This document shows positions 977 through 31,301 of a DNA stretch of 35,763 bases, in pieces. Each line of letters opens with the position of its first letter. The first letter of the stretch is position 1. A model generated the notes under the pieces. That model was given only the letters and a program-made list of their open reading frames with translations. It was not told the origin of the DNA and made no database searches. The stretch spans positions 1 to 35,763 of the forward strand of contig JAISPX010000049.1 of the NCBI GenBank assembly GCA_031274595.1, written 5' to 3'. Both the position numbers and the translations under genes were made by a program. This DNA comes from Prevotellaceae bacterium. GTDB taxonomy: Bacteria > Bacteroidota > Bacteroidia > Bacteroidales > UBA932.

Positions 977-1633
977 CTACAAATAATTTTCCAATAGTTT
1001 TTTCCAAACCAAATATCCTTCGCCTAAAAGGTGTAATCCGTCATTGGTATATTTTACATTCAGTTTCCCGTTTGGGTCAACAAGTTCTGAATAAACGTCA
1101 ACAAATGTAATGCCTTTTTGGATACATAATTGTTTTAAAAGTTCATTTGTTTCGATAATTTCTTTGCTTTTTGAACCTTGACGTTTTGTATATTTTTCAA
1201 AATCGTTGTTTACAGGAAAAATGCTTTGTATATACAATTCTGTTTCGGGACTTTCTGTTTGAAAACGTTCAATCAGTTTTGCCATATTTTCGGCTATTGA
1301 TTGTGGAGAATGTCCTGCTCCCAAATCGTTTGTACCTGTTTGGACAAATATTTTTTTTGGTTTTCCTTTTATAATCGGATCTAATCTGTCGAGTATCCAA
1401 TATGTGCGGTCGGCGCTGATACCGCGATTTTTTATGTTCGGATTATTAAAAAGTTCGTTCCACTCGCAACCATCTGTGATACTGTTGCCGAGGAATATAA
1501 TATCTGCTGGCGTTATCGGCAATATTTCAAATAACGAGCGTCTTTGGTAATTATATTCGCTTGGTTCCGGTGTTTGTGCGTAAATACTTATTGCTATAAA
1601 AGTTGCCGCAAATAATAATATTATTTTTTTCAT
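977..1633 (-). CDS. secreted SGNH/GDSL-type esterase
   Basis: This protein of 218 residues has a signal peptide (about 1-19, cut before Gln20). It is an SGNH hydrolase: block I is GNSITDG with the nucleophile Ser51, block II Gly is in NRGIS (about 71), block III is GTND (100-103), and block V is DGLH with Asp198 and His201. Members of this family remove acyl or acetyl groups from lipids or sugars; which one applies here cannot be read from the sequence. It lies 82 bp after the BACON lipoprotein gene on the same strand, at the end of the Sus-like cluster, but a strong hairpin lies in that gap, so it may be transcribed weakly by read-through or separately. Within the cluster a deacylase for phospholipids would fit; a sialate or acetylxylan-type esterase is an alternative. 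Confidence 0.85.
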   Translation of the reverse strand: MKKIILLFAATFIAISIYAQTPEPSEYNYQRRSLFEILPITPADIIFLGNSITDGCEWNELFNNPNIKNRGISADRTYWILDRLDPIIKGKPKKIFVQTGTNDLGAGHSPQSIAENMAKLIERFQTESPETELYIQSIFPVNNDFEKYTKRQGSKSKEIIETNELLKQLCIQKGITFVDVYSELVDPNGKLNVKYTNDGLHLLGEGYLVWKKLLENYL

Positions 1634-1668
1634 ATTTTTTTTGTATTTAAATTAAATATTTAATGTAA

Positions 1669-1703
1669 AAAATAGCCACCTGATATTTGCAAGTGGCTAT
1701 TTT
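1669..1703 (-). terminator. intrinsic terminator between lipoprotein and SGNH genes
   Basis: A perfect 11-bp inverted repeat (AAAATAGCCAC / GTGGCTATTTT) with a 13-base loop is followed, in the minus direction, by a run of T. It comes right after the stop codon of the BACON lipoprotein gene and before the SGNH gene, so it could end or attenuate the long glp/sus transcript. Confidence 0.7.
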
Positions 1704-1715
1704 ATTATTCTGTCT

Positions 1716-3377
1716 TTACGGAACAAGACTTATTACAGGGCTTGTTCCATCATCTGATCCTGCTAAGCGGGATGTTCCTGTATTTGGAGATGCTAATGCT
1801 CCGCCATTAGCTTTCCAATTCGCCATACAACGGAAACGGAATTGTACTTCACCTGTTTCAATTTTTTGCGTAAATGTATGAGTAGAATTTACCTGTACAT
1901 TGGTATTACCATCTGCATTCATTGCATGCGTATATGTAACGTCGCCAAGTCCTGCAACATTTTCTGTTGTAGGTTGTCCAACGACTTTCCATTCTCCATC
2001 GTCATAACATTCAAGCATCCAGTATTTATGACCTGTTGCAGATGTTCGTGTGAGATATTTAATATTGATTTTAGTTCCGGGTCGCAAATTTGTTACGGGA
2101 ACTTTGAACAACCAATAATCGCCTGTCCAACCGCCATTAATGTAAGGATGTCCTGTTGTTCCTACTATTCTTACTCCAACATTAGGGCTTGACGGAAAAT
2201 TATCCAATCCTCCTTCGGGTATATAACTTATAGTACTTGTTCCTGTAGCCGTAGCTGCGCCTGTTCCCGATTTGATAGCATTACCTTCGTTTGTTTTGAA
2301 TTGCGATATGTAAGTTCCTGCATTATAGTGAGCGGCAGAAAATTCCCATGCAACAGGAGTTTCAAAGCCTGTCATTTCACCAAGTTCATCTTGTTCGATG
2401 GTAACTGTGTAAGTGAAGTTCACAGGATCAACAGGCGATGATATTGTAACAGTACCTACACGCAACGCTCCTGTGGTATTTTCGCTGACATTCAGCATTG
2501 CCGCCGTTTCTGTTGTTGATGATACCGTAATCCAACTGTCGTTTGAAACAGCCGTCCAAGCAATATTTGCATCAACAGCGCAATTTATAACTTTAGGCAA
2601 CTTTGAGATTCCATATAATACGGTCGGAACTTTCAGATAACTTCCTGCTTCCTGACGTATTGTTATTTCTCTCCTGATATTTGGATTATCAATATAGAAA
2701 AACGTTATTAATGCTGTTCTCTGTGCATCTCCCATATTCTTTAATGCATCAATTTTTACGCTATCGCCTTCTACTCTTATTGCAGTAAGCCAATCTACTA
2801 TGCCAATCTGATCGCCATCTTCATCATTGCTGGTGCTGTCTCCTATTTTAATATCCCATTGAACATTGGATTTGACAAATAGGAAAAATGATTGGTCAAT
2901 AACTCCCGAAATATCAATAGTTGATTTTTCTTCTTTTACGCCTTGTTCATTACGCACGGTTACCGTGATATAAGGATTATTTTCTTTCTGAGTAACTGTA
3001 ATCAACACAGGTTGTTCTACGCCTCCTGCAATGATTTTAAAATATGCTTTGCGTTGCGTAATATCATCGTTTGCTTTGGCAATAATTCTAAATATGCCTT
3101 CATCTTTTCCAGTTTTCGGAAATGCTTCACACCATTTATATTCTTCAAGCGGAACTATCTCCCATTCGCCTACTGCTCTTACCGTATAGAAATGATACGG
3201 TGTTGCATTGTTATATGCGGTATGTTCTATTATCAAATTAGAATAGTCTTCTTCAATAAAGAACGATGGCGCAGGTTTTACATCATCCGATTCGCATGAT
3301 GTAAACATTGTTGCTGCAATACAAAAAATTGTAAGCAACAAGATATTCATTTTAGTAAAAAAATTAAATTTTTTCAT
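1716..3377 (-). CDS. BACON-type surface lipoprotein of the Sus-like locus
   Basis: The start at 3377 (MKKFNFFTKMN) was preferred over 3419 because it gives a normal lipoprotein signal with Cys28 in FTSC. The mature protein (product 553 residues) has several beta-sandwich repeats: about 35-130 ends in QPVLITVTQKEN, 130-245 ends in REITIRQEAG, and 250-325 contains WTAVSNDSWITVSS and ends in YTVTIEQDE. These 'W.ai.....Wi.v......t..i.Q' units are typical of BACON domains. The C-terminal 200 residues (WEFSAAHYNAG...) form another domain I do not recognise, possibly ligand binding. The gene follows the phosphoesterase-GDPD gene by 55 bp, in the position where Sus loci carry SusE/F-like surface binding lipoproteins. 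It probably holds the substrate at the cell surface; the ligand is unknown. Confidence 0.75.
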   Translation of the reverse strand: MKKFNFFTKMNILLLTIFCIAATMFTSCESDDVKPAPSFFIEEDYSNLIIEHTAYNNATPYHFYTVRAVGEWEIVPLEEYKWCEAFPKTGKDEGIFRIIAKANDDITQRKAYFKIIAGGVEQPVLITVTQKENNPYITVTVRNEQGVKEEKSTIDISGVIDQSFFLFVKSNVQWDIKIGDSTSNDEDGDQIGIVDWLTAIRVEGDSVKIDALKNMGDAQRTALITFFYIDNPNIRREITIRQEAGSYLKVPTVLYGISKLPKVINCAVDANIAWTAVSNDSWITVSSTTETAAMLNVSENTTGALRVGTVTISSPVDPVNFTYTVTIEQDELGEMTGFETPVAWEFSAAHYNAGTYISQFKTNEGNAIKSGTGAATATGTSTISYIPEGGLDNFPSSPNVGVRIVGTTGHPYINGGWTGDYWLFKVPVTNLRPGTKINIKYLTRTSATGHKYWMLECYDDGEWKVVGQPTTENVAGLGDVTYTHAMNADGNTNVQVNSTHTFTQKIETGEVQFRFRCMANWKANGGALASPNTGTSRLAGSDDGTSPVISLVP

Positions 3378-3432
3378 AGTATTAATAATTTTAATATTTA
3401 TTCTTATTTTCAATTTCATAATTTGTGATTAA

Positions 3433-5667
3433 TTAGTATTTTCGTATTTGTTTCAAAACAATATCAGGGTAATTACTTATAATAGCATCGACTTTGAAAT
3501 CCAGCATTTGCTTAATATCGTCGATTTTATCAACAGTCCATACCACAATTTTCATTCCTAAATCACGACATTTTTTTAAAAGATTTTCATTTACAAGCGA
3601 AAAATGCGGACTATAATATACAGGCACAAAATTAAGTTTTTCCATATTTATTTCAAAATCATTGTCTTTATTTTCTACATTGTAAGATAATTTTATGTCA
3701 GGATACTTTTCATGCAAATAATTCAATGTACGTGGGTCAAAACTTTGTACTACAAGCCTGTCATTAATATTCTTGGACAATAAAATTTCCATAGCCAAAT
3801 CGCAAAATTCTTGGTAAGAGGGAGAAAAAACATTATCTCTGCCTTCCGCCGATTTTATTTCTATATTGTACAATACAGGAGAAATTTTGTTTGCTACCGT
3901 GTAATTTTCAACAGAATCTATCAAATCTGAAACCAGAGGTTTATGAGTTTTTATTTTCTTCTGTGTTGGAAAATCGGGATGTAATTTCATACCTGTTTCA
4001 TATTTTGCAATTGAGTCATAGGTCATGGAATAAAGCGAATAATGTTTTGCTTCTTCTTTTTTAATTTCCGCTCCATCCGGACGTGTTACAAATTTGTAGT
4101 TCATCCAAGGGTCGTGTGAAACAACAACTTTTTTGTCCTTTGATATATTCAGGTCAAATTCAAGAGCGCTTACACCTAAATTAATTGCATGAATCATTGC
4201 ATCAACAGTATTTTCGGGCATAAGTCCTGCGCCGCCTCTGTGCGCTTGAACGTCTATAGAATGTTCGAGCAACAATGAATCTGCATAAATTCTTCCAAAA
4301 TTATCTTTTACAACTATATTTATTTGCTTGGCGTTTTCTTCGGGATTAGCGGCAAAATACCAATATGTACGATTATCGTTAATATATTTACGTTTTGACT
4401 TGTCGCGGTAAACCTCAATTTCTTGCAGATAATAAGGCGAAACATCAAAAACTTTATCTATGTTTATTTTTTTGCCATCTTGATAACATTCTACCGTCCT
4501 GTTTTCGTCCCAATCCCAAATTGCCGCTACTATCTTATTGGGATGATATTTGGATTGTCCTTTGTTGAATATTTCCATCTGATAGTTGCGAGGTTTTCCA
4601 ACAGATTTGTAATACCACGAAAATTTCTTTCCATCCGATTCAAAAACCTTATATCCGCGTGGCGTTCCATCATCATTGTGATATCCAACCCATAATGAAC
4701 CATTTATGGCGGCGATATTGTTTTCAAAGAAATTCGGATTTATTTCAATGTTATGGTTTCTGTGCAAGTGTCCCGACAAAACATTAACTTTATAATCACG
4801 GCAAACATTAATTAATTTTTCGCCGTTTATCATTATTTTGTTTTTACTATCCCACCATCTTGCAAACGGTGCATGCATCGCAATAATGACATGAGAACCT
4901 TTGGGAACATAGTTGAGATATTTTTTCAGCCAATCAAGTTGATTTTCGGTTATCGCTTCCTTATAATTACGTCTGGTGTTGTAAATAATGTTATCCAAAA
5001 CCACAACATAATCTTTTCCGATATTGAAGGCGTAATAATTTGGGCCGAACATTTCGCGATATTTTTCGGCAGATGCATAATCATCTCCTTCAATACTTTG
5101 GTCATGGTCGTGATTTCCTATGACAGGATAAATTGGAGCTTTCACTGTTGAATTGAGTTTTTTTATCGGTTCAAACAGATTAAAAGCATCCCACACAATA
5201 TCGCCTAACATAATGCCTGCTACTGTTGTATGTGTATTTTTACCATATTCCTCTATAGTATTTTTAATGTCAGGAAATATTTGCGTTTTATATTCGTCAA
5301 AATGTTCATCCGTTTTTGGCTGAGGGTCAGCAATTGCAACAAGCGTATAATTTTCGGTATTTCCCCATTTTATAAGGTCAAAATCATATTTCTTGATTTT
5401 AACATCGAATTTTTTGTAGAAAACAGGCGTACCGCTATCAAATTCGGCTGTATAACCTGCTGGAGTTGCAATATAAATAAAATCGGCATTGATGTCAGCA
5501 TCAAGTACAAATTGACCTTTTTCATCTGTTACCGCAAAATTCTTTCCATCTGTTACAACAACATTTGCAATATTTGTTTCACCTGACCTTACTACGCCTG
5601 TTACTTGTTGAGAATATAAATTTGCAACTAATAACAAATACAACAGTGTAACTATAATCTTTTTCAT
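3433..5667 (-). CDS. metallophosphoesterase fused to glycerophosphodiester phosphodiesterase
   Basis: This is a protein of 744 residues with a signal peptide (1-19). Residues 20-90 are a carboxypeptidase-regulatory-like beta domain (MetallophosN type). Residues 105-320 are a calcineurin-like phosphoesterase with GDIVWD (Asp156), GNHD (Asn185-His186), AMH (His265) and GHLH (His300, His302). The first metal motif is ADPQ (114-116), with Gln where His is usual. Residues 340-465 match the C-terminal domain of such enzymes (MetallophosC type). Residues 472-744 are a GDPD domain: HRGG (His476, Arg477), EN (485-486), EFD (Glu503, Asp505) and His518 in SHDP. GDPD enzymes split glycerophosphodiesters into glycerol-3-phosphate and an alcohol. 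Placed 18 bp after susD and upstream in the same run from glpT/glpD, it is the likely source of G3P. The two domains may act in sequence on one substrate. It should be periplasmic or surface-exposed. Confidence 0.9.
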   Translation of the reverse strand: MKKIIVTLLYLLLVANLYSQQVTGVVRSGETNIANVVVTDGKNFAVTDEKGQFVLDADINADFIYIATPAGYTAEFDSGTPVFYKKFDVKIKKYDFDLIKWGNTENYTLVAIADPQPKTDEHFDEYKTQIFPDIKNTIEEYGKNTHTTVAGIMLGDIVWDAFNLFEPIKKLNSTVKAPIYPVIGNHDHDQSIEGDDYASAEKYREMFGPNYYAFNIGKDYVVVLDNIIYNTRRNYKEAITENQLDWLKKYLNYVPKGSHVIIAMHAPFARWWDSKNKIMINGEKLINVCRDYKVNVLSGHLHRNHNIEINPNFFENNIAAINGSLWVGYHNDDGTPRGYKVFESDGKKFSWYYKSVGKPRNYQMEIFNKGQSKYHPNKIVAAIWDWDENRTVECYQDGKKINIDKVFDVSPYYLQEIEVYRDKSKRKYINDNRTYWYFAANPEENAKQINIVVKDNFGRIYADSLLLEHSIDVQAHRGGAGLMPENTVDAMIHAINLGVSALEFDLNISKDKKVVVSHDPWMNYKFVTRPDGAEIKKEEAKHYSLYSMTYDSIAKYETGMKLHPDFPTQKKIKTHKPLVSDLIDSVENYTVANKISPVLYNIEIKSAEGRDNVFSPSYQEFCDLAMEILLSKNINDRLVVQSFDPRTLNYLHEKYPDIKLSYNVENKDNDFEINMEKLNFVPVYYSPHFSLVNENLLKKCRDLGMKIVVWTVDKIDDIKQMLDFKVDAIISNYPDIVLKQIRKY

Positions 5668-5685
5668 CTTATAAAAATTTGTTTT

Positions 5686-7233
5686 TTACCAGTTTCCTGT
5701 TATTGCTTTTTTACTCCACCACATTGGCGTTTTCATATCGTTGTCTCTGGCATTCATATTTTGCAACGCTGCATTTGCATTTACCGAATTTGTAGCCATT
5801 GTAGTATTGGGATAAGCAAAGCGTGTAGGTAAAATATGGTCGTTGAGCGTTCCTGTGCCGATAATCAAATCGGGAAAACCTGTGCGGCGATATTCGTGCC
5901 ATGCTTCCATTCCAATCCAAAATAAGGCAATATATTTTTGGTTTGCAATAAGTTCTTCTATATCAGCATCACTTTTTGCAAGGTCAAAAATCACTTCTGG
6001 TCGCTGAAGAAATGCAGTAATATCGGCGCTTGCGATAACATGAGGAACTGTCATATATTTACCATATCCTGCCCATTTTTCTATTGAAGCGGTAACAGCA
6101 TTTTCATAATAATTTTTCGCGGCATCTTTGCCTCCACTTATAAAACCTTTGAAAGCGGCTTCGGCAAAAATAAATTGTACTTCGGCATAATCCATAAAAA
6201 TATAATCGCCATCATTTCGTACAAAGACTTCATAATTAAGTCGCGCTACTCCTGATGTTGTTCTTTCTCCAATAGGACATCCTGCAACAGCGCCTTTCCA
6301 GCCTCCGCTTCTCATAACTCCATAAACAGGAAGACGAGGATCAACGTAAGCGCCGCCATCAAAAACCGTCATTTTTATTATCTGTTCGGTAAGATGACGC
6401 CCTGCAGATGTAAATGATGATTCGTCATAATCTACTCTATTGAAGTAATATAAATAAGGGGCTGTTCCTGAAAATACACATTTGGCATTGTCGGCATTTG
6501 ATTCAAAAACAGGATATGTTAAAGGATTATTCAGAATTTCCTGAATTTTTGCAACAACAGGCAATTCGTCGTTTCTGCCGCTTACTCGCATCAACAAACG
6601 CAGATACAATGAATTATTGAATTTACGCCATTTTGTAAGATTAGCTCCATACATGTTATCAATAGAAGCGGAAAAATACGGACTGTCTGACTGATACAAT
6701 ATATTTGCCTGTTCCAGTTCAGCAAACATTTGTTCGAAAACTTCTTTTTGCGTATCAAATTTAGGTTTCATATTACCTATATTTGCCTGAAATGCTTCGG
6801 AATAAGGAATATCGCCAAACATGGATGCAAGTTCGGACATGTAAAATACTTTCCATGTAAGAGCCAACGCTTTGAATATGTCGTCATTATCTCTTTGGGC
6901 GAGTTGGTACATGTGATTTGCATTATTGGCTTTTGCCGCATAAAAATTCCATCTGTTTGCCCAGTTTCCATCCGCTATACTGTAAATATTTTCGTTACGT
7001 GTTGTGCCTCCTGCAAATGTGGTATATTGAATCAGTTCATTATTCCAGAACCATGTGCTATATGTCCAATCGTTAGCGCCTCCAGCAAGTATTGGCACAA
7101 ACATATTTGATGGTTTTGCCGAGCCAACAGAAAATCCGTTAGGATTTGTGTTGGTTTCTATAAAGTCTGCTGTACAAGCTGTCATGCAGGTCATTATAGT
7201 TATAAACAATGTTAATTTTTTGATATTTTTCAT
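5686..7233 (-). CDS. SusD/RagB-like outer-membrane lipoprotein
   Basis: The start at 7233 (MKNIKKL) lies 10 bp after the susC stop and gives a lipoprotein signal with Cys20 in MTAC; the longer frame to 7272 would overlap susC. The product is 515 residues, the usual size. Family features are the NTNPNGF segment just after the lipidated Cys, the helical TPR-like core with LTWKVFYMSELASMFGDIPYSEAF, and the C-terminal 'FWIGMEAWHEYRRTGFPDL' segment. It belongs to the SusD-like group with these motifs (PF12771-type). It acts as the lid of the SusC channel and binds the substrate at the surface. Its association with phosphoesterases instead of glycoside hydrolases suggests a phosphorylated, non-glycan ligand. 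Confidence 0.92.
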   Translation of the reverse strand: MKNIKKLTLFITIMTCMTACTADFIETNTNPNGFSVGSAKPSNMFVPILAGGANDWTYSTWFWNNELIQYTTFAGGTTRNENIYSIADGNWANRWNFYAAKANNANHMYQLAQRDNDDIFKALALTWKVFYMSELASMFGDIPYSEAFQANIGNMKPKFDTQKEVFEQMFAELEQANILYQSDSPYFSASIDNMYGANLTKWRKFNNSLYLRLLMRVSGRNDELPVVAKIQEILNNPLTYPVFESNADNAKCVFSGTAPYLYYFNRVDYDESSFTSAGRHLTEQIIKMTVFDGGAYVDPRLPVYGVMRSGGWKGAVAGCPIGERTTSGVARLNYEVFVRNDGDYIFMDYAEVQFIFAEAAFKGFISGGKDAAKNYYENAVTASIEKWAGYGKYMTVPHVIASADITAFLQRPEVIFDLAKSDADIEELIANQKYIALFWIGMEAWHEYRRTGFPDLIIGTGTLNDHILPTRFAYPNTTMATNSVNANAALQNMNARDNDMKTPMWWSKKAITGNW

Positions 7234-7243
7234 GATAAATATT

Positions 7244-10200
7244 TTAGAATTGAAGTTTAACATTAATACCATAAGTACGAGTCATAGGAAAGGTCATAGG
7301 TTCTATACCTGGCATGATATTTGTACCGTTTACAACAGCCGTTTCAGGATCGTATTGAGGGAAATCGGTTATGCAGAAAAGATTTGTAGCAAATATTCCT
7401 ACACTTGCGCCTTGCAAAATTTTCAGTTTTTCACACAATTTTCTTGGTACCATATAATCCAGACGTACTTCCTTGAATTTGAAATAAGATGTGCTGAATG
7501 TATTTTCACGCGTATTGTCTCGAATCCATTTAAAGTTTGTATAATAGTTCTGCACATCTTTTATGATTGTTGTATTTTTCTTGTATGATACCGAACCATC
7601 GGGATTAGTTATAGCGTTTACTCCATCAAGCATCATGCCATCGTATCTGCCCTCGAGCGAGTTGGTAAGTTTACCAATATAACTCAACGAAAAATTGGTT
7701 ACCGAATAAGCATTGCCGCCATATTGCCATGCAAAAGTCATTCCAAGACTAAAATTTTTGTATCTGATTGTTTGAGTCATACCTGCTTTCCAATCAGGAT
7801 TTACTTTTGCTATCCTTGATTCAGGATTTTGGTCTAGAATTGGATTACCCGTACTTTCTGTAATCAGTTTCATTCCCGAACAATCTATTTGCTTTCCGTT
7901 ATCGTCAATATAGTATGAACCTTCGGGAGCTTTTTGATAATCTCGTCCGTAAATCCAATACATTTCTTCACCTATAAACGAATAAATATAAGTACGACTG
8001 CCTATTGTTGTTGACGTTAGAAGTTGAAAAGGTGTTACAGGATCCCAATCTTCTGTCATTGATTTAAGAACACTTTTGTTTTTTGCCCAGTTTACATTCA
8101 TAGTCCATGTAAAATCTTTTGTTTTAACAGGTACAAAAGTAGCTTCTATTTCAATGCCTGTATTCAAAATTGTGGCTACATTAATATTCATCCTTGATGC
8201 GCCTGTTATTTGATCAATAGGTACATCCACGATTTGGTCTTCTGAAGGAGATCTGTATAAGGTAATATCAATGCCCACACGGTTTTTTAGAAATTTCGCT
8301 TCCAGTCCTATCTCATAATTAGTTATATTTTCAGGTTTAATATATAAATATTTCATTGAGCCGGGTAATTGATACCCTCCGGGGAAACTTGAATTTGAAT
8401 ATACATCATACAGTTGATAGGCTTTAGTATCATTACCAACATTTGTGTAGGCTAAACGTAACTTTGCAAAATTTACAACGGGCAATTTCTCTTTAAAATT
8501 AAAAGTATTGTGCAATAATATACTTGCTGTAATCGAAGGATAAAAATATGACCAATTATCTTCATATAGCGTACTTGTCCAGTCGTTGCGTGCTGTGATA
8601 TCAAGAAAATAAGTATCCATCCATCCCAAAGTAACCAAACCATATAAACTGTTTTTTTTCTTTTTAGCGTGAGTACTGCTTATGGTGGCAGGATGTTCTT
8701 GTGTACCATTGTTTAAAGAATAGAAATAATCTTGTTCAAGAGCTTCTATTATTCCCTTCGTATTATTGTATTTATTTGCCGTATGCGTTCCTCCAAAATA
8801 TGCTGTAACAGATAATCTTTCATTAAACAAACTGTTGTTGTTATATTTCAGCATGAAATCCAGATTGAAATCAATATCTCTAATTGTTTGTTCGCTATAA
8901 TAACCATTTATGTATGCAGGAGTTAATTTAGGTCTCATCTTTTGTCTAAATTCATTATTTACATCAATATAACCTTTCAAATCAAGTTGAAGATTTTTAT
9001 GAAGTTTTATATTTAAAGATGTATTTGCAATAATACGATCTTTATCTATAGGGTTTAACGCTTCATGCAAGGTTTGATAAGGATTCCACGAGTCGGAAGT
9101 CGTAGGATAAACTAATACTCCATCTTTTAAGTTTTTTTCGTTATAGCGACCTTCAAAATATTCGGTTTTCCATGTTTTATTAATATCATTCACATTATAT
9201 CCCCATACCAACTGATACATTACATTTGAAGGGTCATAACCGCTTATTGGAACATTATCGCTGTAACGCCGATTGTAGGTAACCTTTGCGCTTAAAGAAA
9301 TATATTTGTTGAGTTCTTGTTGCATTGTAAGTACAAAATTTTGAGTTACGCTTTTGGTATTAGGCGTTATCCAGTCGTTACGCGTGTCGGTGAAAGAAAA
9401 ACGTCCAGAAAATCCTTTACCGTTGTTTCCATCAATAGTTATGCTGTTCTTAAAAGTAACTCCTGTTTGGAACAAACCTGTGTACCAGTTGTCGGCATAC
9501 ACAAAAGGAAGTTTTGTATAAGTATCGTTATCCCAGTCGCGCGAAGCATAAAGATAACGCATTTTGTCAGGACTGAATTTTTCGCCAAAAGCATAACGAT
9601 TGTAGGAATTTCGACTTACGGCAATTCCATCGGGAGCTTTATCGGCAGGAACTGTCCAGAAACAATAAGGATTTATGGCATCGGTACTTGGTCCGTATTC
9701 TCTTTGGAAATCGGGCCAAAAGCCTGCTTTTTCAAACGAAACAGCAGAATTAACAGTTACGCCTATTCCTTTTTGTTCACGTCCTTTTTTTGTTGTAATG
9801 ACAATTGCTCCTCTTGATGCTAAAGATCCATAAAGAGCCGCAGCTGCAGGACCTTTCAAAACAGTAAGATTTTCAATATCATCCGGATTAATGTCGTTTG
9901 CGCCATTACCAAAGTCAACCGAAGCATCTGCATTTGCATAATTTGCTCCGCTACCGCTTGCAGTTGGTTTTGTATTAAAAATAACTCCATCTACAACAAA
10001 CAGCACATCATTATTACCAAAATCCAATGAATTGTCTCCACGTAAAGTAACGCGTCTGCTACTCATCGGTCCTGTACCTCCGGACGATATCTCCAAACCT
10101 GCAACTTTACCTGACATAGCATCGAGCCAGTTGCTTTCTACGGTTTTAACAAGATCATCGCCTTCAAACTTTGTTACGGCATAACCCAATGCTTTTTTTT

Positions 10201-10561
10201 CGCGTGTAATACCCAAAGCGGTTACTACTACTTCGCTTATTTGTTCGACATCAGATTCCATAATAACATTGACTATGCTTTGTTTCCCCACGACAACTTC
10301 CTGAGTTTTATATCCTAAAAACTGGAAAAGCAAAACAGCGTTTTCGGGTACTCTCAACGTATATTTTCCATCTAAATCAACAGAAGTACCAATACTTGTA
10401 TTTCCTTTCACCGAAACATAAGCCCCGGTTAAGGCTGTTTGTCCATCACTGTCGTAAACAGTACCTGTAACAACTTGTTGCGCCGTTGCTGTTAGTGTAA
10501 AATAAAGCGCGACAAGTGTTGTTGTAAATAATTTTTTAACCATACTGATTTTTTTATTCAT
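7244..10561 (-). CDS. SusC/RagA-like TonB-dependent receptor
   Basis: A receptor of about 1105 residues. It has a signal peptide ending in ATAQQ and a carboxypeptidase-regulatory-like domain (about 28-110: VTGTVYDSDGQTALTGAYVSV...). The probable TonB-box region (EQISEVVVTALGITR) comes next, then the plug (about 120-245) with the SusC signature DIENLTVLKGPAAAALYGS and the end ITTKKG. A large beta barrel ends in aromatic INVKLQF. It forms the energised outer-membrane channel with the SusD protein encoded 10 bp downstream. A second Met at 10543 is an equally possible start. It follows the TIG-phosphoesterase gene by 22 bp, so co-transcription is likely. Energy would come from a TonB/ExbB/ExbD complex such as the one encoded at 25797-28082. 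Confidence 0.95.
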   Translation of the reverse strand: MNKKISMVKKLFTTTLVALYFTLTATAQQVVTGTVYDSDGQTALTGAYVSVKGNTSIGTSVDLDGKYTLRVPENAVLLFQFLGYKTQEVVVGKQSIVNVIMESDVEQISEVVVTALGITREKKALGYAVTKFEGDDLVKTVESNWLDAMSGKVAGLEISSGGTGPMSSRRVTLRGDNSLDFGNNDVLFVVDGVIFNTKPTASGSGANYANADASVDFGNGANDINPDDIENLTVLKGPAAAALYGSLASRGAIVITTKKGREQKGIGVTVNSAVSFEKAGFWPDFQREYGPSTDAINPYCFWTVPADKAPDGIAVSRNSYNRYAFGEKFSPDKMRYLYASRDWDNDTYTKLPFVYADNWYTGLFQTGVTFKNSITIDGNNGKGFSGRFSFTDTRNDWITPNTKSVTQNFVLTMQQELNKYISLSAKVTYNRRYSDNVPISGYDPSNVMYQLVWGYNVNDINKTWKTEYFEGRYNEKNLKDGVLVYPTTSDSWNPYQTLHEALNPIDKDRIIANTSLNIKLHKNLQLDLKGYIDVNNEFRQKMRPKLTPAYINGYYSEQTIRDIDFNLDFMLKYNNNSLFNERLSVTAYFGGTHTANKYNNTKGIIEALEQDYFYSLNNGTQEHPATISSTHAKKKKNSLYGLVTLGWMDTYFLDITARNDWTSTLYEDNWSYFYPSITASILLHNTFNFKEKLPVVNFAKLRLAYTNVGNDTKAYQLYDVYSNSSFPGGYQLPGSMKYLYIKPENITNYEIGLEAKFLKNRVGIDITLYRSPSEDQIVDVPIDQITGASRMNINVATILNTGIEIEATFVPVKTKDFTWTMNVNWAKNKSVLKSMTEDWDPVTPFQLLTSTTIGSRTYIYSFIGEEMYWIYGRDYQKAPEGSYYIDDNGKQIDCSGMKLITESTGNPILDQNPESRIAKVNPDWKAGMTQTIRYKNFSLGMTFAWQYGGNAYSVTNFSLSYIGKLTNSLEGRYDGMMLDGVNAITNPDGSVSYKKNTTIIKDVQNYYTNFKWIRDNTRENTFSTSYFKFKEVRLDYMVPRKLCEKLKILQGASVGIFATNLFCITDFPQYDPETAVVNGTNIMPGIEPMTFPMTRTYGINVKLQF

Positions 10562-10583
10562 ATTATTAATAATTTTCAGATTA

Positions 10584-12551
10584 TCATTGCATTAATGTTG
10601 AAAATGCTTTAGGGCGAGTCATAGTTTCGGTATATTCGTTTCCAAAACCATCCGTAACTTTTATAGTCAAAGTAGATGTTGGATTTGATGCTTTTACACG
10701 AAACATGTGAGTTGTATTGTTTGTTACAAAAGAACTTGTTGGTTCAGATTTTCCTACTTCAAAACGTTTTGCTTCATAAGAAATAATATGCAGAGGATCT
10801 TTTGCGCTGATACGTGTTACGTTAAGCGGCGTTTCTCCTTCTTTTACTTCAATTGTCCATGCAGGGTCGTGATTCCAAACATTTATCAAAACATAATTAT
10901 CGGTACTTTCATTAATATATTCGCCGGCATAAATTGCTTCAAACAATACTTTGTGCGCATCTGAAGCATTTGGAGTATATTTTTCCGCTGTTATTTGTAT
11001 TTCATTGCGGTCGTAAGTTCTAAACTGTTTTGTTTTCGGATAACCAATACTTTTGTAATACCATTTTATATCACGTCCTGATATTTCATAAACTCCGTAT
11101 CCTCCAGGCTCTCCATCTTTGCAAATGTGGTTTCCGGCATATCCATTTTTGCCTGTCCACCACCATGTAGCACAAACAGCGCCTGTATTATGTTCAAAAT
11201 GATTACCTTCCATGACATTATAATTAAGGTGAGTATGACCAGTGAGATAATGCACTGTAGAAAATTCAGCAAAACAATTTCTCAATTCTGTTCCGTTCTG
11301 CAATGCCAGCGAATGTGTCTGATTTCCTCCGCTTATGCCTACTTTGTAAAGAGGGCAGTGCATTGCAACTATAACAGGCGTGGTTTTGTCGGTAATTGTT
11401 GCAAGGTCTTTTTTCAGCCATTCTATTTGTTCGGTAACAATCTTTTCATTATAATTTCTGTCGCCCGTAGCGCCTTGAACGCCTCCTGTATTGATATATT
11501 CAACATTATCCAAAACTACATAATGAATTTCACCTATATTGAATGAATAATACGTGGGACCTACAACAGTTTTGTAAGTTTGTTCTGCCAGCCAGTCGTT
11601 TGCAATATACGGATTATTATCGTGATTACCAATAGTATTAAAAAGCGGACATCCTATAGATTTTATTGATTGAATATAATCGGGTAAAGAATAATTATTG
11701 TCATACCAATAAGCATCCCAACTCATGTCGCCAAGAGTAAGACCATAGATTTTTTTGTTCAATATGCCGTATTGGACACACATATCTTTTGTTTCTTTAA
11801 GAAAGTTTTGTTCAAATTGGCTCAAGTCGTTATTACGATTTGCCAAATGCAAATCAGCCATAGCCAAAAGCGTATATTCGGATTGGTCTGTCTGAGTCAG
11901 ACTAAAGTTTTTTTGTTCAACCACAGTTTGTGATTCTGTAAGGTAATCGTAGAACTGCGCCATACTGTTTAATAACGGCGCTTCGTATCCCGAAGGAACA
12001 GATATGAATACATAACCGTTTTTCTTTTCGGACGATAAGTAATAAATACCGTTTTCGTCGGTAACAGTTACTTCAAAGCCATCGGAAACAACAACGCCAG
12101 GAACGCCAGCTCCGTTGCAATAAACAACGCCTTTAACGTTTTTGCCTGCAACGTCCGGAATATTCAAATTAGCAAGAATTATTACATTCAAATAATTCAG
12201 CGCTTCAGTGATATCCCCGCGCGTTACATAAAAAGCATAAATTGCGGTATTCATTTCATCAGGAACTGTGAATGTAACCGAATTGCTTGTTACGGAAGTT
12301 ACCGAAACGGTAATGTTTGTGGAGTTGTTTGCCTTAAATGTAAGAATGTCGCCAATTTCAAATCCGCTTCCCATAATCGTTACCTGCGCTCCCTTGTAAG
12401 TTTCAACTACAGGAGGAATTATTACACCTGTAATATTGAGAGTAGTCATTGTTAAACTTTCGTCTTCCTTGTCGCAACTTGTAAATCCACAGGTAATGAC
12501 AATTACTGTTAATGCCATCATTAGACATAATTTTAATTTTGATTTTTTCAT
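10584..12551 (-). CDS. lipoprotein metallophosphoesterase with N-terminal TIG domain
   Basis: The product is 655 residues with a lipoprotein signal (FTSC, Cys26). Residues 38-125 look like an IPT/TIG domain (GAQVTIMGSGFEIGD). Residues 138-215 are a carboxypeptidase-regulatory-like domain (VKGVVYCNGAGVPGVVVSDG). Residues 226-450 are a calcineurin-like phosphoesterase: ADLH (Asp233, His235), GDMSWD (Asp275), GNHD (Asn309, His310, Asp311), AMH (His398) and GHTH (His439, His441). Unlike the paralogue at 3433-5667, every metal ligand is the canonical one. The C-terminal part (490-650) matches the beta-rich end of that paralogue. It precedes susC directly. It probably cleaves a phosphomonoester or phosphodiester at the cell surface, using the TIG domain as spacer or binder. 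Confidence 0.87.
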   Translation of the reverse strand: MKKSKLKLCLMMALTVIVITCGFTSCDKEDESLTMTTLNITGVIIPPVVETYKGAQVTIMGSGFEIGDILTFKANNSTNITVSVTSVTSNSVTFTVPDEMNTAIYAFYVTRGDITEALNYLNVIILANLNIPDVAGKNVKGVVYCNGAGVPGVVVSDGFEVTVTDENGIYYLSSEKKNGYVFISVPSGYEAPLLNSMAQFYDYLTESQTVVEQKNFSLTQTDQSEYTLLAMADLHLANRNNDLSQFEQNFLKETKDMCVQYGILNKKIYGLTLGDMSWDAYWYDNNYSLPDYIQSIKSIGCPLFNTIGNHDNNPYIANDWLAEQTYKTVVGPTYYSFNIGEIHYVVLDNVEYINTGGVQGATGDRNYNEKIVTEQIEWLKKDLATITDKTTPVIVAMHCPLYKVGISGGNQTHSLALQNGTELRNCFAEFSTVHYLTGHTHLNYNVMEGNHFEHNTGAVCATWWWTGKNGYAGNHICKDGEPGGYGVYEISGRDIKWYYKSIGYPKTKQFRTYDRNEIQITAEKYTPNASDAHKVLFEAIYAGEYINESTDNYVLINVWNHDPAWTIEVKEGETPLNVTRISAKDPLHIISYEAKRFEVGKSEPTSSFVTNNTTHMFRVKASNPTSTLTIKVTDGFGNEYTETMTRPKAFSTLMQ

Positions 12552-12660
12552 TTTATCTATTATTTTATAGTTTTATATATTTATTAAAAATTCATGTAAT
12601 TTATTAAAAATCATAAAATTGTATTTTGTATTTATCTGCAATAATTTCATAATTTACAAC

Positions 12661-14073
12661 TTAACAATTCGCTTTTTCTTTTTTCCAAGTTGTAGCACAG
12701 AATACAGCCCCTACAATACTTGCAACTGTAAACATCCAAAAAGTTGCATCCCAACCGTTAGATTGAGAAACTGCTCCCATAACTATTTTTGCCAGCACTG
12801 CATCTCCGAGAAGATAACCAAACAATCCCACAAAACCTGCGGCAGTACCTGCTGCGTTTTTCGGAACAAGATTTAATGCCTGAACGCCAATAAGTGCAAC
12901 AGGTCCGTAAATGCAAAAACCTATTTGGCAAAGTGACATATAAACAACAGTGCGACATATCGCTGCAGGGTCGCCGCCAAAAGTTTGCGCAAACCATTCC
13001 GCAACAGGCATTGCCTGCCAATAAACCAAAATTCCTATAAGCACCAATACCATATATATAACGTTAGCAGGAGCGCAACGACCCTTGAAAAATTTTGCTG
13101 AAATCAATCCGCAAATTATTGTTCCCGGAACTCCTGCATAGTTGTGTAACGAAAATGCCAAATTGCTTTGACTTGAATTCATGATATTCATTTCCTGCAA
13201 ATAAACAGGCGCCCAGTCGCTTATGCCGTAACGTATGAGATAAACAAATGCATTTGCAACGGCGATAAGCCAAAGTATTTTGTTTTTGAAAATATAATCA
13301 ACAAAAAGACGCTTGAAAGGAATTTTTATTTCTTCGTCTTTGGCGTTTTGTTTTCCCGAAAAGTCATTGCGATATTCGTCAATAGGAGGAAGTCCGCACG
13401 ATTGCGGAGTGTCGCGCAAAGCCCACCAACAAAATCCAGCAAACAAAATAGCAACCAGACTCGGAAATATAAAAGATGCACGCCATGTTTGTTCTATTCC
13501 TAAAACCAAGAATATGCCGACACCTAAGGTTACAAGTAAACCTAAAGACCCACTGCCAATAGTGTGAGACGTATTCCATACGGACATCTTAAAACTTCGT
13601 TCGTTTTGCGAAAACCAATGCGCCATTATTCTTCCGCAAGGAGGCCAACCCATTCCCGACAGCCAACCGACCAACAACATAAGCGAGAAAATTATAATCA
13701 CATTGTATGTTATATTATTTGCGTTAAATGGAATTAATCCTGCGCCTATCATCAAAAAGGATGATAGTATTAGACCTATTACAAGAAATTTTCGGGCGTC
13801 GCTACGGTCTGAAATGCTTCCCATAATAAATTTACTGAATGCGTAAGCTATGGAAATAGCAGAACCTGCAATACCGACACTTGCTTTGTCAAGCAAACCG
13901 TTTTCTATCATTCCCGGCGCTGCCAGCGATAAATTTTTTCTTACCAAATAATATGCAGCATAACCGAAAAATGCTCCTAAAAATACTTTTAAACGCATTT
14001 TTTTGTAGGTCGTATCTATTTTTCCCTTTTCAATCAGTGGTTTATATGCCGGAGGCTGTAAAAGATTTTTCAT
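12661..14073 (-). CDS. glpT: glycerol-3-phosphate transporter (MFS, GlpT type)
   Basis: A 470-residue, 12-helix organophosphate:phosphate antiporter. Diagnostic segments are YYLVRKNLSLA with Arg45, GMGWPPCGR (140-148), SVWNTSHTIGSG with His170, and YLIRYGISDWAPVYL with Arg281. These align with Arg45, His165 and Arg269 that bind the phosphate of G3P in E. coli GlpT. It brings G3P across the inner membrane in exchange for inorganic phosphate. It lies 69 bp after glpD and 109 bp before the TIG-phosphoesterase gene, all on one strand. A -7-like site (CAAAATTA read in reverse, 14090-14097) could add a weak internal promoter. A UhpT-like hexose-phosphate or UhpC-type sensor is less likely given the neighbouring glpD. 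Confidence 0.92.
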   Translation of the reverse strand: MKNLLQPPAYKPLIEKGKIDTTYKKMRLKVFLGAFFGYAAYYLVRKNLSLAAPGMIENGLLDKASVGIAGSAISIAYAFSKFIMGSISDRSDARKFLVIGLILSSFLMIGAGLIPFNANNITYNVIIIFSLMLLVGWLSGMGWPPCGRIMAHWFSQNERSFKMSVWNTSHTIGSGSLGLLVTLGVGIFLVLGIEQTWRASFIFPSLVAILFAGFCWWALRDTPQSCGLPPIDEYRNDFSGKQNAKDEEIKIPFKRLFVDYIFKNKILWLIAVANAFVYLIRYGISDWAPVYLQEMNIMNSSQSNLAFSLHNYAGVPGTIICGLISAKFFKGRCAPANVIYMVLVLIGILVYWQAMPVAEWFAQTFGGDPAAICRTVVYMSLCQIGFCIYGPVALIGVQALNLVPKNAAGTAAGFVGLFGYLLGDAVLAKIVMGAVSQSNGWDATFWMFTVASIVGAVFCATTWKKEKANC

Positions 14074-14142
14074 AAAATTATTTTGGCTGCAAAATTATTA
14101 CTTATTTATTTAATTAATGTTTCAATAATATTAAAATTATGT

Positions 14143-15708
14143 TTATATCATTATATAATTTCTCACTATTTCGCTGTATGCTTTTATCTGTTCATCAATC
14201 CACGATTGGTCTTTTTTCATTTCTTCTGACATAATTTCGGCAATGCGAGGCGATATTTTCAATGCTTCGCGGGCATCAATGTATTGCAGACGTACGCGAC
14301 GTGCAAGTACATCATCTAAGGTACGCGCCATTTCTTTCCTAATCGCCCAAATCACTTCGGCAACAGTGTAATCGTACTTTGATGATATTTTTTCTGCATA
14401 TTTTGGATTTTCGTTTGTTAATTTTACAATTTCGGGTTCATCACTGCCGTAAACATACAAATGATTTTTAAAGTCAGGATTTTTACGATAACCGTGAATA
14501 TGTAATTTTTTGGTAATACATTTTCTTTTTTCAATCAATCCAATGTTAATTGCCTTATTTATAGTATCCTGTGCCATTAATCGGTATGATGTCCATTTTC
14601 CGCCTGTTATTGTTATAAGTTTACTGTCGGAAACTATAATTTTGTGACTTCGTGAGATTTCTTTTGTTTTTTTTCCTGCTTTTTTGGGCGCTGACAATGG
14701 ACGTTGTCCTGCAAATACAGATAAAACGTCGTTGCGTGTAGGCGCAGGATTCATATACAAACCGGCAGTTCTCAGAATGAAATCAATTTCCTGTTCCAAT
14801 GGTTTGGGTTCACTTTCGGGTATTTCGCGCAGGATATCTGTTGTACCGACAACAACCTTATTGTGCCATGGAACGGCAAACAATACACGTCCATCGCCTG
14901 TTTTTGGAACCATTATTGCATAATCGCTTTGTAAAAACTTCATATCCAATACTATATGTACGCCTTGACTTGGTTGTATCATTTTTGGAGTGTTCGGTTT
15001 ATCCATTTTTATTATATCATCGATAAAAATACCTGAAGCGTTAATTACTGCTTTTGATTTTACGTCATATTGTTTTCCTGTTTCTTTATCGGTAACTTTT
15101 ACACCTGCAATTTTACCGTCGGCGCTATGAATAAGAGAATCTACAGATGCGTAATTTACAGCACAACCTCCGTTTTCGACACAGGTTTGTGCAAGATTAA
15201 CAGCCATTCTTGCGTCATCAAATTGTCCATCATGATACATAATTCCGCCTTTCAGATTTTTTTCGACAGACGTAGGAATATATTTCAACACTTTCTTTTT
15301 CGATATAAATCTGCTGCGTCCGTATCCAAAACCGAATGAAAGAATATCATAAAAAGTCAATCCGCAAAAGTAAAGCAAATTATCCCAATATCTGTAGTTT
15401 GCAATAACAAAAGACTGGTCTTTTACTAAATGCGGAACGTTTGCTTTCATTCGTCCGCGCTCGCGCAAAGCTTCCAAAACAAGCATTACATCTCCTTTTT
15501 GCAAATAACGGACGCCGCCATGTACTAATTTTGTACTTTTGCTTGATGTAGATTTTGCAAAATCATCTTTCTCAAATAATACTACATTAAATCCCCGTGT
15601 TGCCGCATCTACGGCGCACCCGAGACCTGTTGCCCCTCCGCCGATAACTATTACATCCCATATTTTGTCCGAGTCTGAAATTTGCAATATTTGTTTATCT
15701 CTATTCAT
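14143..15708 (-). CDS. glpD: FAD-dependent glycerol-3-phosphate dehydrogenase
   Basis: A 521-residue FAD enzyme. The dinucleotide-binding fold is at the start (VIGGGATGLGCAVDAATRG, 21-39), followed by the family signature SSKSTKLVHGGVRYL (about 55-69). The TGGKWTSYRLMAQD segment lies in the substrate/FAD part, and the C-terminal helical cap domain contains EVIWAIRKEMARTLDDVLARR. It oxidises G3P to dihydroxyacetone phosphate at the inner membrane and passes electrons to quinone. It is the first gene of the minus-strand run and is divergent from the DeoR-type regulator gene. No glycerol kinase or facilitator is nearby, so the pathway here appears to start from G3P itself. Confidence 0.95.
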   Translation of the reverse strand: MNRDKQILQISDSDKIWDVIVIGGGATGLGCAVDAATRGFNVVLFEKDDFAKSTSSKSTKLVHGGVRYLQKGDVMLVLEALRERGRMKANVPHLVKDQSFVIANYRYWDNLLYFCGLTFYDILSFGFGYGRSRFISKKKVLKYIPTSVEKNLKGGIMYHDGQFDDARMAVNLAQTCVENGGCAVNYASVDSLIHSADGKIAGVKVTDKETGKQYDVKSKAVINASGIFIDDIIKMDKPNTPKMIQPSQGVHIVLDMKFLQSDYAIMVPKTGDGRVLFAVPWHNKVVVGTTDILREIPESEPKPLEQEIDFILRTAGLYMNPAPTRNDVLSVFAGQRPLSAPKKAGKKTKEISRSHKIIVSDSKLITITGGKWTSYRLMAQDTINKAINIGLIEKRKCITKKLHIHGYRKNPDFKNHLYVYGSDEPEIVKLTNENPKYAEKISSKYDYTVAEVIWAIRKEMARTLDDVLARRVRLQYIDAREALKISPRIAEIMSEEMKKDQSWIDEQIKAYSEIVRNYIMI

Positions 15709-15771
15709 CTATATTTTTATATTTTTAATTTTAACTTTCAAAACAAAATGATTTTGCTTTCATTTTTACTG

Positions 15772-15804
15772 CAAATTTATAGATTATATTTTCATATAAA
15801 CAAA
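15772..15804 (-). promoter_or_regulatory. predicted glpD promoter
   Basis: Read on the minus strand this is TTTG (15804-15801), 21 bases, then TAAATTTG (15779-15772), an exact match to TAnnTTTG. It lies about 65 bases before the glpD start and would drive the whole glp/sus run. Confidence 0.55.
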
Positions 15805-15841
15805 AAATATCTTATTTTTCGATTTAAAATTTGCATAAATG

Positions 15842-15862
15842 TTTCATATTGTTTCGTTTTGA
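15842..15862 (+). promoter_or_regulatory. possible DeoR-family operator
   Basis: TTTCA at 15842 and TTTCG at 15852 are spaced ten bases apart, about one helical turn, and are followed by TTTTGA. Tandem TTTCR units are typical of several DeoR-family operators. It sits between the two divergent promoters. Further TTTCAT copies occur near 15759 and 15790. No binding is shown; this is pattern inference. Confidence 0.35.
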
Positions 15863-15973
15863 TAAAAATATTAAGTGTTAAAATTTTGACATCCTATTTA
15901 TATTTTTTTAGAAAAAATATTGATTTATATACAAATATAATCTCATATTATTTAATTCTTATAATTATATTAT

Positions 15974-16002
15974 TTTGAAATGAAATTTATTTATTATTTT
16001 TG
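15974..16002 (+). promoter_or_regulatory. predicted glpR promoter
   Basis: TTTG at 15974-15977, 17 bases, then TATTTTTG at 15995-16002, an exact TAnnTTTG match. It lies 27 bases before the ATG at 16030. The spacing is slightly short for the consensus. Confidence 0.45.
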
Positions 16003-16029
16003 CCAAATACTAATTATACAAAATTATAT

Positions 16030-16791
16030 ATGACTCTTACAGAAAGACATTCGCAAATTCTTGATATATTGCACAAACAAGGCTCCGTATCTGTTTTGGA
16101 TTTGGCTAATCAATTAGATGTTTCAAGCGTAACCATACGTAAAGATTTGAGTTTCCTTGAACAAAAAGAATTGCTGTATCGCACGCACGGCAGCGCAATA
16201 CTTATCAATCCGTATATCAACGACAGACATGTTAACGTTAAGGAAAAACTGTACATGGAAGAAAAACGATTGATTGGTATTCGCGCAGCAGAATTAATAA
16301 CGACTAACGATTCTATAATTATTGCTTCGGGAACAACAATTCATGCTTTTGCTCGTCAGATTCAAACAAAAGAACATCTTACGGTTATTTCGGCGGCGTT
16401 GAATGTTACAAATATTTTGGCTCGCAATAAAAATATAGATATTATTCAACTCGGCGGTTTTGTACGTAATACTTCTTTATCAACTGTAGGAAACTATGCG
16501 GAAAAAATGCTTGAAGATTTTTCATGCAGTAAACTGTACATTGGCGTAGATGGAATTGATTTGGATTATGGTTTGACTACAACAAATGCAATGGAAGCAA
16601 CTCTTAACAGAGTGATGATGAAAGTGTCGCAAAAAACTATTGTACTTGCCGATTCATCAAAGTTCGGACGGCGTGGATTCAGCAAAATTTGCGATTTAAA
16701 TTCTGTTGACCACATAATTACAGATAAAAATATTTCGCAAAAAACGCTTGACGGATTGCACGAACATGGAATTGAAGTTTCGATAGTGTAA
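16030..16791 (+). CDS. glpR: DeoR-family repressor, GlpR-like
   Basis: The start at 16030 (MTLTERHSQIL) was chosen over 16000 because DeoR proteins start just before the helix-turn-helix and the upstream bases contain the promoter. The product is 253 residues. The N-terminal winged helix (about 5-57) has VSVLDLANQLDVSSVTIRKDL, the DeoR signature. The C-terminal sugar-phosphate sensor (about 75-240) has IASGTT (residues about 98-103), GG (near 148) and LADSSKFG. The ligand in this family is a phosphorylated metabolite, and here G3P is the natural candidate. It is divergent from glpD and probably represses the glp/sus run until G3P appears. The symbol rests mostly on context. Confidence 0.8.
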   Translation: MTLTERHSQILDILHKQGSVSVLDLANQLDVSSVTIRKDLSFLEQKELLYRTHGSAILINPYINDRHVNVKEKLYMEEKRLIGIRAAELITTNDSIIIASGTTIHAFARQIQTKEHLTVISAALNVTNILARNKNIDIIQLGGFVRNTSLSTVGNYAEKMLEDFSCSKLYIGVDGIDLDYGLTTTNAMEATLNRVMMKVSQKTIVLADSSKFGRRGFSKICDLNSVDHIITDKNISQKTLDGLHEHGIEVSIV

Positions 16792-25796: not shown

Positions 25797-26534
25797 ATGA
25801 AAAGACTATTTATGTTTTTAGCAGCTATTGGAACAACCATTACTGCAAATTTAGCAATCGCACAAGATGCTGTAGCGTCGTTAGCATCAGAAGAAACCGC
25901 AGTTCCGCTACATCAGGTATTAAAGAAAAACTTTATCGATGGAGGTCCGTTATTTATGACGCCAATTATTTTGTGTCTTATTCTTGGTTTAGCATTTGTA
26001 ATCGAAAGGATTATCTATCTAAACCTTGCAGATAACAACACAAAAAAACTTGTTGATGATGTTGAAAATGCACTTGTACACGGAGGCATCGAATCGGCAA
26101 AAGATCTTTGTCGCGACACTCGCGGACCTGTTGCAAGTATTTTTTATCAAGGTCTCGACCGCGCAAGCGAAGGCGTTGAAATGGTAGAAAAAGCCGTTGT
26201 GAACTACGGCGGAGTACAAATGGGTAAATTGGAAAGCAACCTTTCATGGATTGCATTGTTTATCGCTATTTCTCCATCATTAGGATTCTTGGGAACAGTT
26301 ATCGGTATGGTACAAGCGTTCAACGCTATCGAAAATGCCGGTCAAATTTCTCCGACAGTTGTTGCAGCAGGTATGAAAGTTGCTCTTATTACAACCGTTG
26401 CAGGTCTTATTGTTGCTATTATTCTTCAGCTTTTCTATAACTATATACTTGCAAAAGTTGATGCTATCGTTAACAAAATGGAAGATGCATCAATTACTCT
26501 TGTAGATTTGGTTATAAAACACAAAAACAAATAA
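25797..26534 (+). CDS. exbB: ExbB/TolQ-like proton channel protein
   Basis: A 245-residue inner-membrane protein. An N-terminal hydrophobic leader ends near NLAIAQDA (about 22) and may be cleaved. Membrane helices are at about 50-75 (GGPLFMTPIILCLILGLAFVIERI), 150-178 (WIALFIAISPSLGFLGTVIGMVQAF) and 195-220 (ALITTVAGLIVAIILQLFYNYIL). The segment SPSLGFLGTVIGMVQAF is the MotA/TolQ/ExbB signature. It forms the proton-driven motor that energises TonB-dependent receptors such as the SusC protein in this window. It starts a four-gene operon with gaps of 4, 20 and 12 bases. No tonB gene follows. Confidence 0.9.
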   Translation: MKRLFMFLAAIGTTITANLAIAQDAVASLASEETAVPLHQVLKKNFIDGGPLFMTPIILCLILGLAFVIERIIYLNLADNNTKKLVDDVENALVHGGIESAKDLCRDTRGPVASIFYQGLDRASEGVEMVEKAVVNYGGVQMGKLESNLSWIALFIAISPSLGFLGTVIGMVQAFNAIENAGQISPTVVAAGMKVALITTVAGLIVAIILQLFYNYILAKVDAIVNKMEDASITLVDLVIKHKNK

Positions 26535-26538
26535 AATC

Positions 26539-26991: not shown

Positions 26992-27011
26992 TTTTGTAAA
27001 GAAAACAAACT

Positions 27012-27605: not shown

Positions 27606-27617
27606 GAGACACAAACA

Positions 27618-29534: not shown

Positions 29535-29569
29535 TTTCAACTTTCAACTTTCAACTTTCAACTTTCAAC
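29535..29569. repeat. five tandem copies of TTTCAAC
   Basis: Five perfect 7-bp copies, with partial copies on both sides. The stop codon of the FGGY kinase gene (TGA, 29551-29553 on the minus strand) and its last residues lie inside the tract. Confidence 0.95.
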
Positions 29570-31298: not shown

Positions 31299-31301
31299 CG
31301 G

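Follow-up and report, generated by a model that had tools for sequence, protein, structure and literature searches.

A Sus-like locus with a built-in glycerol-3-phosphate pathway in a Prevotellaceae genome, probably for glycerophosphodiester acquisition

SusCD systems are mostly interpreted as glycan importers. The E. coli-type glp system consists of GlpQ, GlpT, GlpD, and GlpR. The closest described systems that bring SusCD together with phosphoesterases are the phosphate utilisation systems (PUS) of Flavobacterium, which are induced by low inorganic phosphate (Pi); the authors propose that one of them, PUSI, serves phosphodiesters such as lipid head groups and nucleic acids (PMC8115612). A literature search combining SusCD or SusD with glycerophosphodiester, GDPD, GlpT, metallophosphoesterase (MPE), or teichoic acid, in a collection with mostly no subscription journals or preprints, returned the PUS work alone as relevant. 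Here, we describe a locus at positions 977-16791 of a 35,763-nucleotide stretch (the window) from a Prevotellaceae bacterium, which is the entire contig JAISPX010000049.1 (C24) of a metagenome-assembled genome (MAG; 2.46 Mb, 205 contigs, 87% complete; GCA_031274595.1). We read it, with a probability of about 0.72, as a Sus-like nutrient-acquisition locus for glycerophosphodiesters, in which GlpT would import sn-glycerol-3-phosphate (G3P) and GlpD would oxidise it.

The locus comprises eight closely spaced minus-strand genes (977-15708), divergent from a DeoR-family gene on the plus strand, as delineated by open reading frames and by Pfam and NCBIfam models:

977..1633, minus strand: SGNH/GDSL esterase, 218 residues (Pfam Lipase_GDSL_2, 4.4e-23), with a hydrophobic signal sequence and no lipobox
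1716..3419, minus strand: BACON-domain lipoprotein (Pfam BACON, 9.8e-21), lipobox FTSC-ESDDVKP
3433..5667, minus strand: fusion of MetallophosN, Metallophos, MetallophosC, and GDPD (MPE-GDPD), 744 residues (Pfam), with a signal sequence and no lipobox
5686..7272, minus strand: SusD-like lipoprotein (SusD-like_2, PF12771, 3e-81), likely start at 7233
7244..10561, minus strand: SusC/RagA TonB-dependent outer-membrane transporter (TIGR04056, 529.5 bits, cut-off 368)
10584..12551, minus strand: TIG and MetallophosN/C lipoprotein (TIG-MPE), 655 residues (Pfam), Cys26 followed by DKEDES
12661..14073, minus strand: GlpT-family organophosphate:phosphate antiporter of the major facilitator superfamily (MFS), inner membrane (TIGR00712 glpT, 512.7 bits)
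14143..15708, minus strand: GlpD, FAD-dependent glycerol-3-phosphate dehydrogenase (Pfam DAO and DAO_C; PRK12266)
15709..16029, no strand assigned: intergenic region between regulator and glpD with TTTCRT-like repeats, a possible operator (from sequence)
16000..16791, plus strand: DeoR-family repressor, AgaR/GlpR-like (DeoRC, 1.6e-47; HTH_DeoR, 8.3e-18)

A SusC/RagA transporter above its model cut-off thus adjoins a SusD lipoprotein, and the pair lies between two MPE genes, of which one also encodes a GDPD, an arrangement of the PUS kind. In Pfam, the SusD matched PF12771 and PF12741 but neither PF07980 nor PF14322. The carbohydrate-active enzymes of a polysaccharide utilisation locus were not found: no locus gene gave a glycoside hydrolase or lyase match in Pfam, the SGNH esterase being the only possible carbohydrate-active exception. 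An earlier note on this DNA had listed the genes from glpD to the SGNH esterase and the divergent DeoR-type gene, stated that gaps measured 10-109 bp, and reported neither glycoside hydrolase nor hybrid two-component system nor anti-sigma pair. The gene list was borne out by the reading frames and both model collections, and neither a glycoside hydrolase nor a hybrid two-component system nor an extracytoplasmic function (ECF) sigma/FecR gene was found within 977-16791. Distances along 977-15708 are 82, 13, 18, an overlap (SusD/SusC), 22, 109, and 69 bp; with the internal SusD ATG at 7233 as the start, the overlap turns into a 10-bp gap, and the gaps are as claimed. For the DeoR-family gene, the ATG at 16030 is a more likely start than the TTG at 16000. 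Scans for sigma-70 promoters and terminators across the locus gave matches at about chance level, so they lend no support to operon boundaries.

The reading was checked on the neighbourhoods of related SusD genes. A pattern scan of a single genome from each species, based on eight aligned SusD sequences, yielded 131 relatives. The 80 best were retained, in loci that by their record titles belong to Flavobacteriia, Bacteroidia, Cytophagia, and Sphingobacteriia. To type the neighbours, phmmer was run with the window proteins and with clade-locus proteins of checked Pfam identity (FGGY/GlpK-like, MIP/GlpF-like, two GDPDs, HAD, and porin). Loci with 8 kb on each side of SusD were counted as intact (n = 49), and 55 intact loci of the same Pfam family (SusD-like_2) from phylum genomes served as controls. 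An MPE was present in all 49 intact clade loci, with BACON in 42, GDPD in 26, GlpD in 16, DeoR in 15, GlpT and GlpK in 12 each, GlpF in 11, and SGNH in 7; at least one of GDPD, GlpT, GlpD, GlpK, or GlpF occurred in 33. Among the controls, MPE and GDPD were found in three loci each, GlpF and SGNH in one each, the other typed genes in none, and any glp or GDPD gene in four (Fisher test: glp/GDPD, p 8.7e-11; MPE, p 3e-26); the typing favours close homologues and could miss distant GDPDs or transporters in the controls, a bias that three GDPD query types were meant to lessen. The gene arrangement recurs in other genera, and further clade neighbours include GlpK-like FGGY kinases, GlpF-like MIP channels, HAD phosphatases, and additional GDPDs. 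The earlier note had proposed conserved synteny as the check on its idea, which relatives beside unrelated enzymes would have undermined; these counts favour the idea. Many surveyed loci are MAG fragments. In G003, the locus (L042, L064) appears to be divided between two contigs within the TIG-MPE gene, fragments of which lie at the end of C8 and the start of C5.

The SusD tree, for which every second clade locus was taken together with the controls (99 rows in all), contains a fully supported clade of 40 rows that holds 36 associated loci, and associated rows lie mainly there. Four sampled clade loci lack associated genes (L108, L120, L142, L144), all on truncated contigs with an incomplete neighbourhood. 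The MPE/GDPD-bearing controls L193, L195, and L205 are all among the four whose SusD scores highest against that of the window (193-208 bits); the link may therefore extend to a sister group, and a wider SusD group for phosphodiesters is suggested. When 391 phylum genomes were searched at E<=1e-120 using the aligned SusD sequences, with three candidates scored per genome, no further carrier emerged, so the clade appears sparse.

Co-occurrence at the genome level points in the same direction. A close SusD occurs in 11 of the 200 family genomes surveyed, leaving 189 others. GlpD is present in 9/11 carriers and 11/189 others (p 7e-9, or 6e-8 with the window genome left out), and GlpT in 10/11 and 37/189 (p 2e-6, or 8e-6), although these p values do not describe independent events, since family genomes are related. 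With 20 occurrences in 200 genomes, GlpD is not a housekeeping gene in this family. Within their own assembly, GlpT and GlpD (E<=1e-20) and the regulator (E<=1e-15) are the sole matches, and both MPEs are likewise single at the thresholds used, while contig C44 holds a further GDPD. In two genus mates (G021, G083), no relative of the window SusD was found and, at the same thresholds, no match to GlpT, GlpD, or the regulator.

The chance that housekeeping glp genes merely came to lie beside an unrelated Sus locus, to which a relative (G040) with the SusCD locus but no glp genes would lend some colour, is negligible and was rejected on the control loci and the genome-level test, given synteny in distant genera, strong co-occurrence, and the rarity of GlpD in the family.

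The AlphaFold2 model of the fusion (predicted local distance difference test, pLDDT, 91) has two enzyme domains, an MPE at approximately residues 100-460 and a GDPD at approximately 469-744. Residues 468-744 resemble GDPDs, with the free Cytophaga enzyme 3ch0 as the best match (Z 35.6, 43% identity) and B. subtilis GlpQ bound to G3P at Z 27.3. The GDPD catalytic and metal residues (HR, ExD, H) are intact, with H476, R477, E485, E503, D505, and H518 present in 11/11 aligned GDPDs. For residues 107-359, the best MPE-type match is GpdQ, the glycerophosphodiesterase of Enterobacter aerogenes (Z 23.1). The D-x-H metal motif of this domain reads D-x-Q, with Gln116 in place of a metal-binding His; 22/24 homologues are alike, and the other motifs are intact. 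For TIG-MPE, a sequence search of the PDB gave weak purple acid phosphatase matches only, so a structure comparison was needed. Its model (pLDDT 90) is closest to GpdQ among solved structures (Z 23.8), followed by Rv0805, Lmo2642, and purple acid phosphatases, and the residues of its predicted dinuclear site (D233, H235, G274, D275, GNHD, H398, H439, and H441) are invariant in 43 sequences. Both MPE domains are only 16-17% identical to GpdQ, and a GpdQ-like fold is in itself no proof of activity.

Lipoboxes occur in the SusD, BACON, and TIG-MPE proteins but not in the SGNH esterase or the fusion. The residues after the Cys are acidic in BACON (ESDDVK) and TIG-MPE (DKEDES), resembling the lipoprotein export signal with acidic residues after the Cys described in PMC5080379. 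By sequence, BACON is thus likely a surface binding protein, and TIG-MPE is probably surface exposed. Its Cys26 is invariant in 43 homologues, with at least two acidic residues after the Cys in 25/43; by that measure, surface exposure varies within the family. The fusion is probably periplasmic; a lipobox was found in 0/8 fusion sequences and 1/26 unfused MPEs. A deacylase role for the SGNH esterase is possible. Together, the signal types point to binding and trimming at the surface and cleavage in the periplasm.

The transporter and dehydrogenase assignments are best matches below model thresholds. GlpT scores 512.7 bits against a cut-off of 632.6 for TIGR00712, which is still its best NCBIfam model, above PgtP, UhpC, and UhpT; for GlpD, PRK12266 is the best NCBIfam model, also with a score under the cut-off. 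The window and several relatives have a DeoR-family gene divergent to glpD, an arrangement that speaks for control of glpD. However, the earlier claim of a GlpR-type repressor sensing G3P was not supported: among NCBIfam models, AgaR scores highest (249.6 bits, cut-off 260), well ahead of GlpR (121.9 bits, cut-off 331), and the shared operator motif is marginal. The candidate motif TTTCGTTTTA, with one mismatch allowed, occurred in 10/16 divergent regions and TTTTTGCTTT in 11/16, with shuffle maxima of 7-10; both were dropped as operator motifs since they barely exceed the shuffles. Since an ECF sigma cluster is present in 17 clade loci and a FecR cluster likewise in 17, control varies from locus to locus within the clade. 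Directly downstream of the regulator lies a flotillin-like SPFH protein (17274-18713).

The data show gene content and order, conservation, statistical association, domain folds, intact GDPD catalytic residues, and signal types; from them, we infer the substrate, direction of flow, surface location, and regulation as follows. (i) At the cell surface, the SusD, BACON, and TIG-MPE lipoproteins would bind, and possibly trim, glycerol-phosphate diesters, which SusC would import using TonB energy. (ii) In the periplasm, the MPE-GDPD fusion would cleave the diester into G3P and an alcohol, while the SGNH esterase may strip remaining acyl chains. (iii) At the inner membrane, GlpT would swap G3P for phosphate, and GlpD would oxidise G3P to dihydroxyacetone phosphate. 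Control of the operon probably falls to the divergent DeoR-family repressor, through a phosphorylated intermediate.

Synteny, enrichment over controls, co-occurrence of SusD with GlpD and GlpT, the GDPD residues, and the GpdQ structural neighbour thus support a role in glycerophosphodiester or glycerol-phosphate catabolism. Several observations weigh against it. MPE folds serve many phosphoesters, and 16/49 intact clade loci have an MPE alone, with no recognisable glp or GDPD gene beside SusCD. The genus mate G040, the closest relative, has both SusCD and the fusion, yet gave no GlpT or GlpD match (E<=1e-20). GDPD and GlpT are also found together apart from SusCD; an MPE adjoins GlpT and GlpD in G005, and a fusion adjoins GlpT in G042, in neither case with SusCD adjacent. 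No glycerol kinase was found in the 87%-complete MAG. The earlier proposal of a Sus system for glycerophosphodiesters is supported in its link to glycerol-phosphate catabolism, but not with GDPD as the defining enzyme (26/49 against 49/49 for MPE): what links the entire SusCD clade is an MPE, and GDPD and the glp genes form a variable module of frequent add-ons.

The alternative that survives best, though we consider it doubtful, is phosphate scavenging of the PUS kind, with SusCD taking up organic phosphorus broadly, for Pi, under phosphate-limitation control. GlpT imports G3P in exchange for exported Pi and, with GlpD, GlpK, and GlpF, serves carbon and energy catabolism, which fits poorly with uptake for Pi, and the regulator that adjoins glpD in the window and several relatives is of the DeoR family, not of a Pho type. 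The ECF sigma and FecR clusters of the clade would suit such scavenging, as would its porin O/P- and HAD-type neighbours. In Flavobacterium, PUSI and PUSII combine PusCD with phosphodi- or monoesterases and respond to Pi depletion, and PhoA1 of PUSII carries pf13653 (GDPD_2), but the PusD1 and PusD2 listed for them are PF07980/PF14322 proteins (PMC8115612), whereas the SusD here is PF12771.

It is unlikely that the substrate is a glycerol-phosphate polymer, i.e., wall or lipoteichoic acid, or fragments of these, from Gram-positive neighbours that surface MPE and BACON proteins would release or bind and periplasmic GDPD and MPE would degrade. SusCD systems usually take oligomers, and the GDPD domain is near not only G3P-bound B. 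subtilis GlpQ but also the GDPD-like domains of staphylococcal phage proteins. However, its closest solved structure is the free Cytophaga enzyme, the SGNH esterase suits lipid deacylation better, and many carriers are marine Flavobacteriia, in whose settings Gram-positive walls are presumably scarcer.

We give somewhat less credence to the idea that the constant MPE marks another phosphoester substrate (cyclic nucleotides, sugar-phosphodiesters, or phosphorylated glycans), with the glp genes as accessories. The MPE is constant while glp or GDPD genes are present in two-thirds of intact loci (33/49), the folds of Rv0805 and purple acid phosphatases are also close, and one relative (L139) has a phosphodiester glycosidase (NAGPA) in its locus. 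Against it, the recurring clade genes GDPD, GlpT, GlpD, GlpK, and GlpF converge on glycerol and G3P and are nearly absent from controls.

A bolder extension of the glycerophosphodiester reading, and one unlikely to hold in full, is that of a sparse phylum-wide SusCD clade for glycerol-phosphate compounds, including polymers of the teichoic-acid type, with a complete outer-membrane-to-cytosol route that would draw carbon and phosphorus from the head groups of phospholipids or from the wall polymers of Gram-positive bacteria. A separable SusCD clade with a constant GpdQ-like phosphoesterase, and often a G3P pathway, provides a signature by which the uptake of phosphodiesters by gut and marine Bacteroidota can be predicted from sequence. 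Named isolates are among the carriers (Flagellimonas, Arenibacter, and Phocaeicola coprophilus), so the question of which organisms scavenge phospholipid head groups or teichoic acid can be put to the test in culture.

Elsewhere in the window, the plus strand carries ExbB, ExbD, and ExbD genes (25797-28082), a possible TonB energy unit, and an alkaline-phosphatase (PhoA)-like gene with a partial PRK10518 match (28147-29364). The minus strand at 29551-34570 encodes an XylB-like FGGY kinase, a D-galactonate-type MFS transporter, and a KHG/KDPG aldolase at a GC content of 0.47-0.50, against ~0.35 elsewhere, and is possibly an acquired sugar-acid module.

Compared with known systems, the locus resembles canonical Sus polysaccharide utilisation loci in its SusC, SusD, surface lipoproteins, periplasmic hydrolase, and dedicated inner-membrane transporter, but differs in that glycoside hydrolases, hybrid two-component systems, and ECF/anti-sigma pairs are missing and phosphoesterases and a G3P pathway are there instead. 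With the E. coli-type glp system it shares GDPD, GlpT, GlpD, and a DeoR-family repressor in an equal logical order, to which it adds SusCD outer-membrane import, an MPE-GDPD fusion, and a surface MPE, with a regulator under the GlpR cut-off. GpdQ is the nearest MPE-type solved structure to both MPE domains, which differ from it in their low identity, MetallophosN/C flanks, appended TIG or GDPD, and, in the fusion, Gln116 in D-x-H. With PUS, finally, the locus shares a SusCD-like pair beside phosphoesterases in place of carbohydrate-active enzymes. Co-location of SusCD with phosphodiesterases was already published, which tempers the earlier description of the locus as unusual; what remains of that description is the SusD type, in a comparison that covers PusD1 and PusD2 out of six PusD forms, and the glp coupling, since PUS are Pi-regulated and the terms GDPD, GlpQ, GlpT, and glycerol are absent from the available part of the text (PMC8115612). 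These two features set a Sus-like phosphodiester locus with a G3P pathway apart from PUS.

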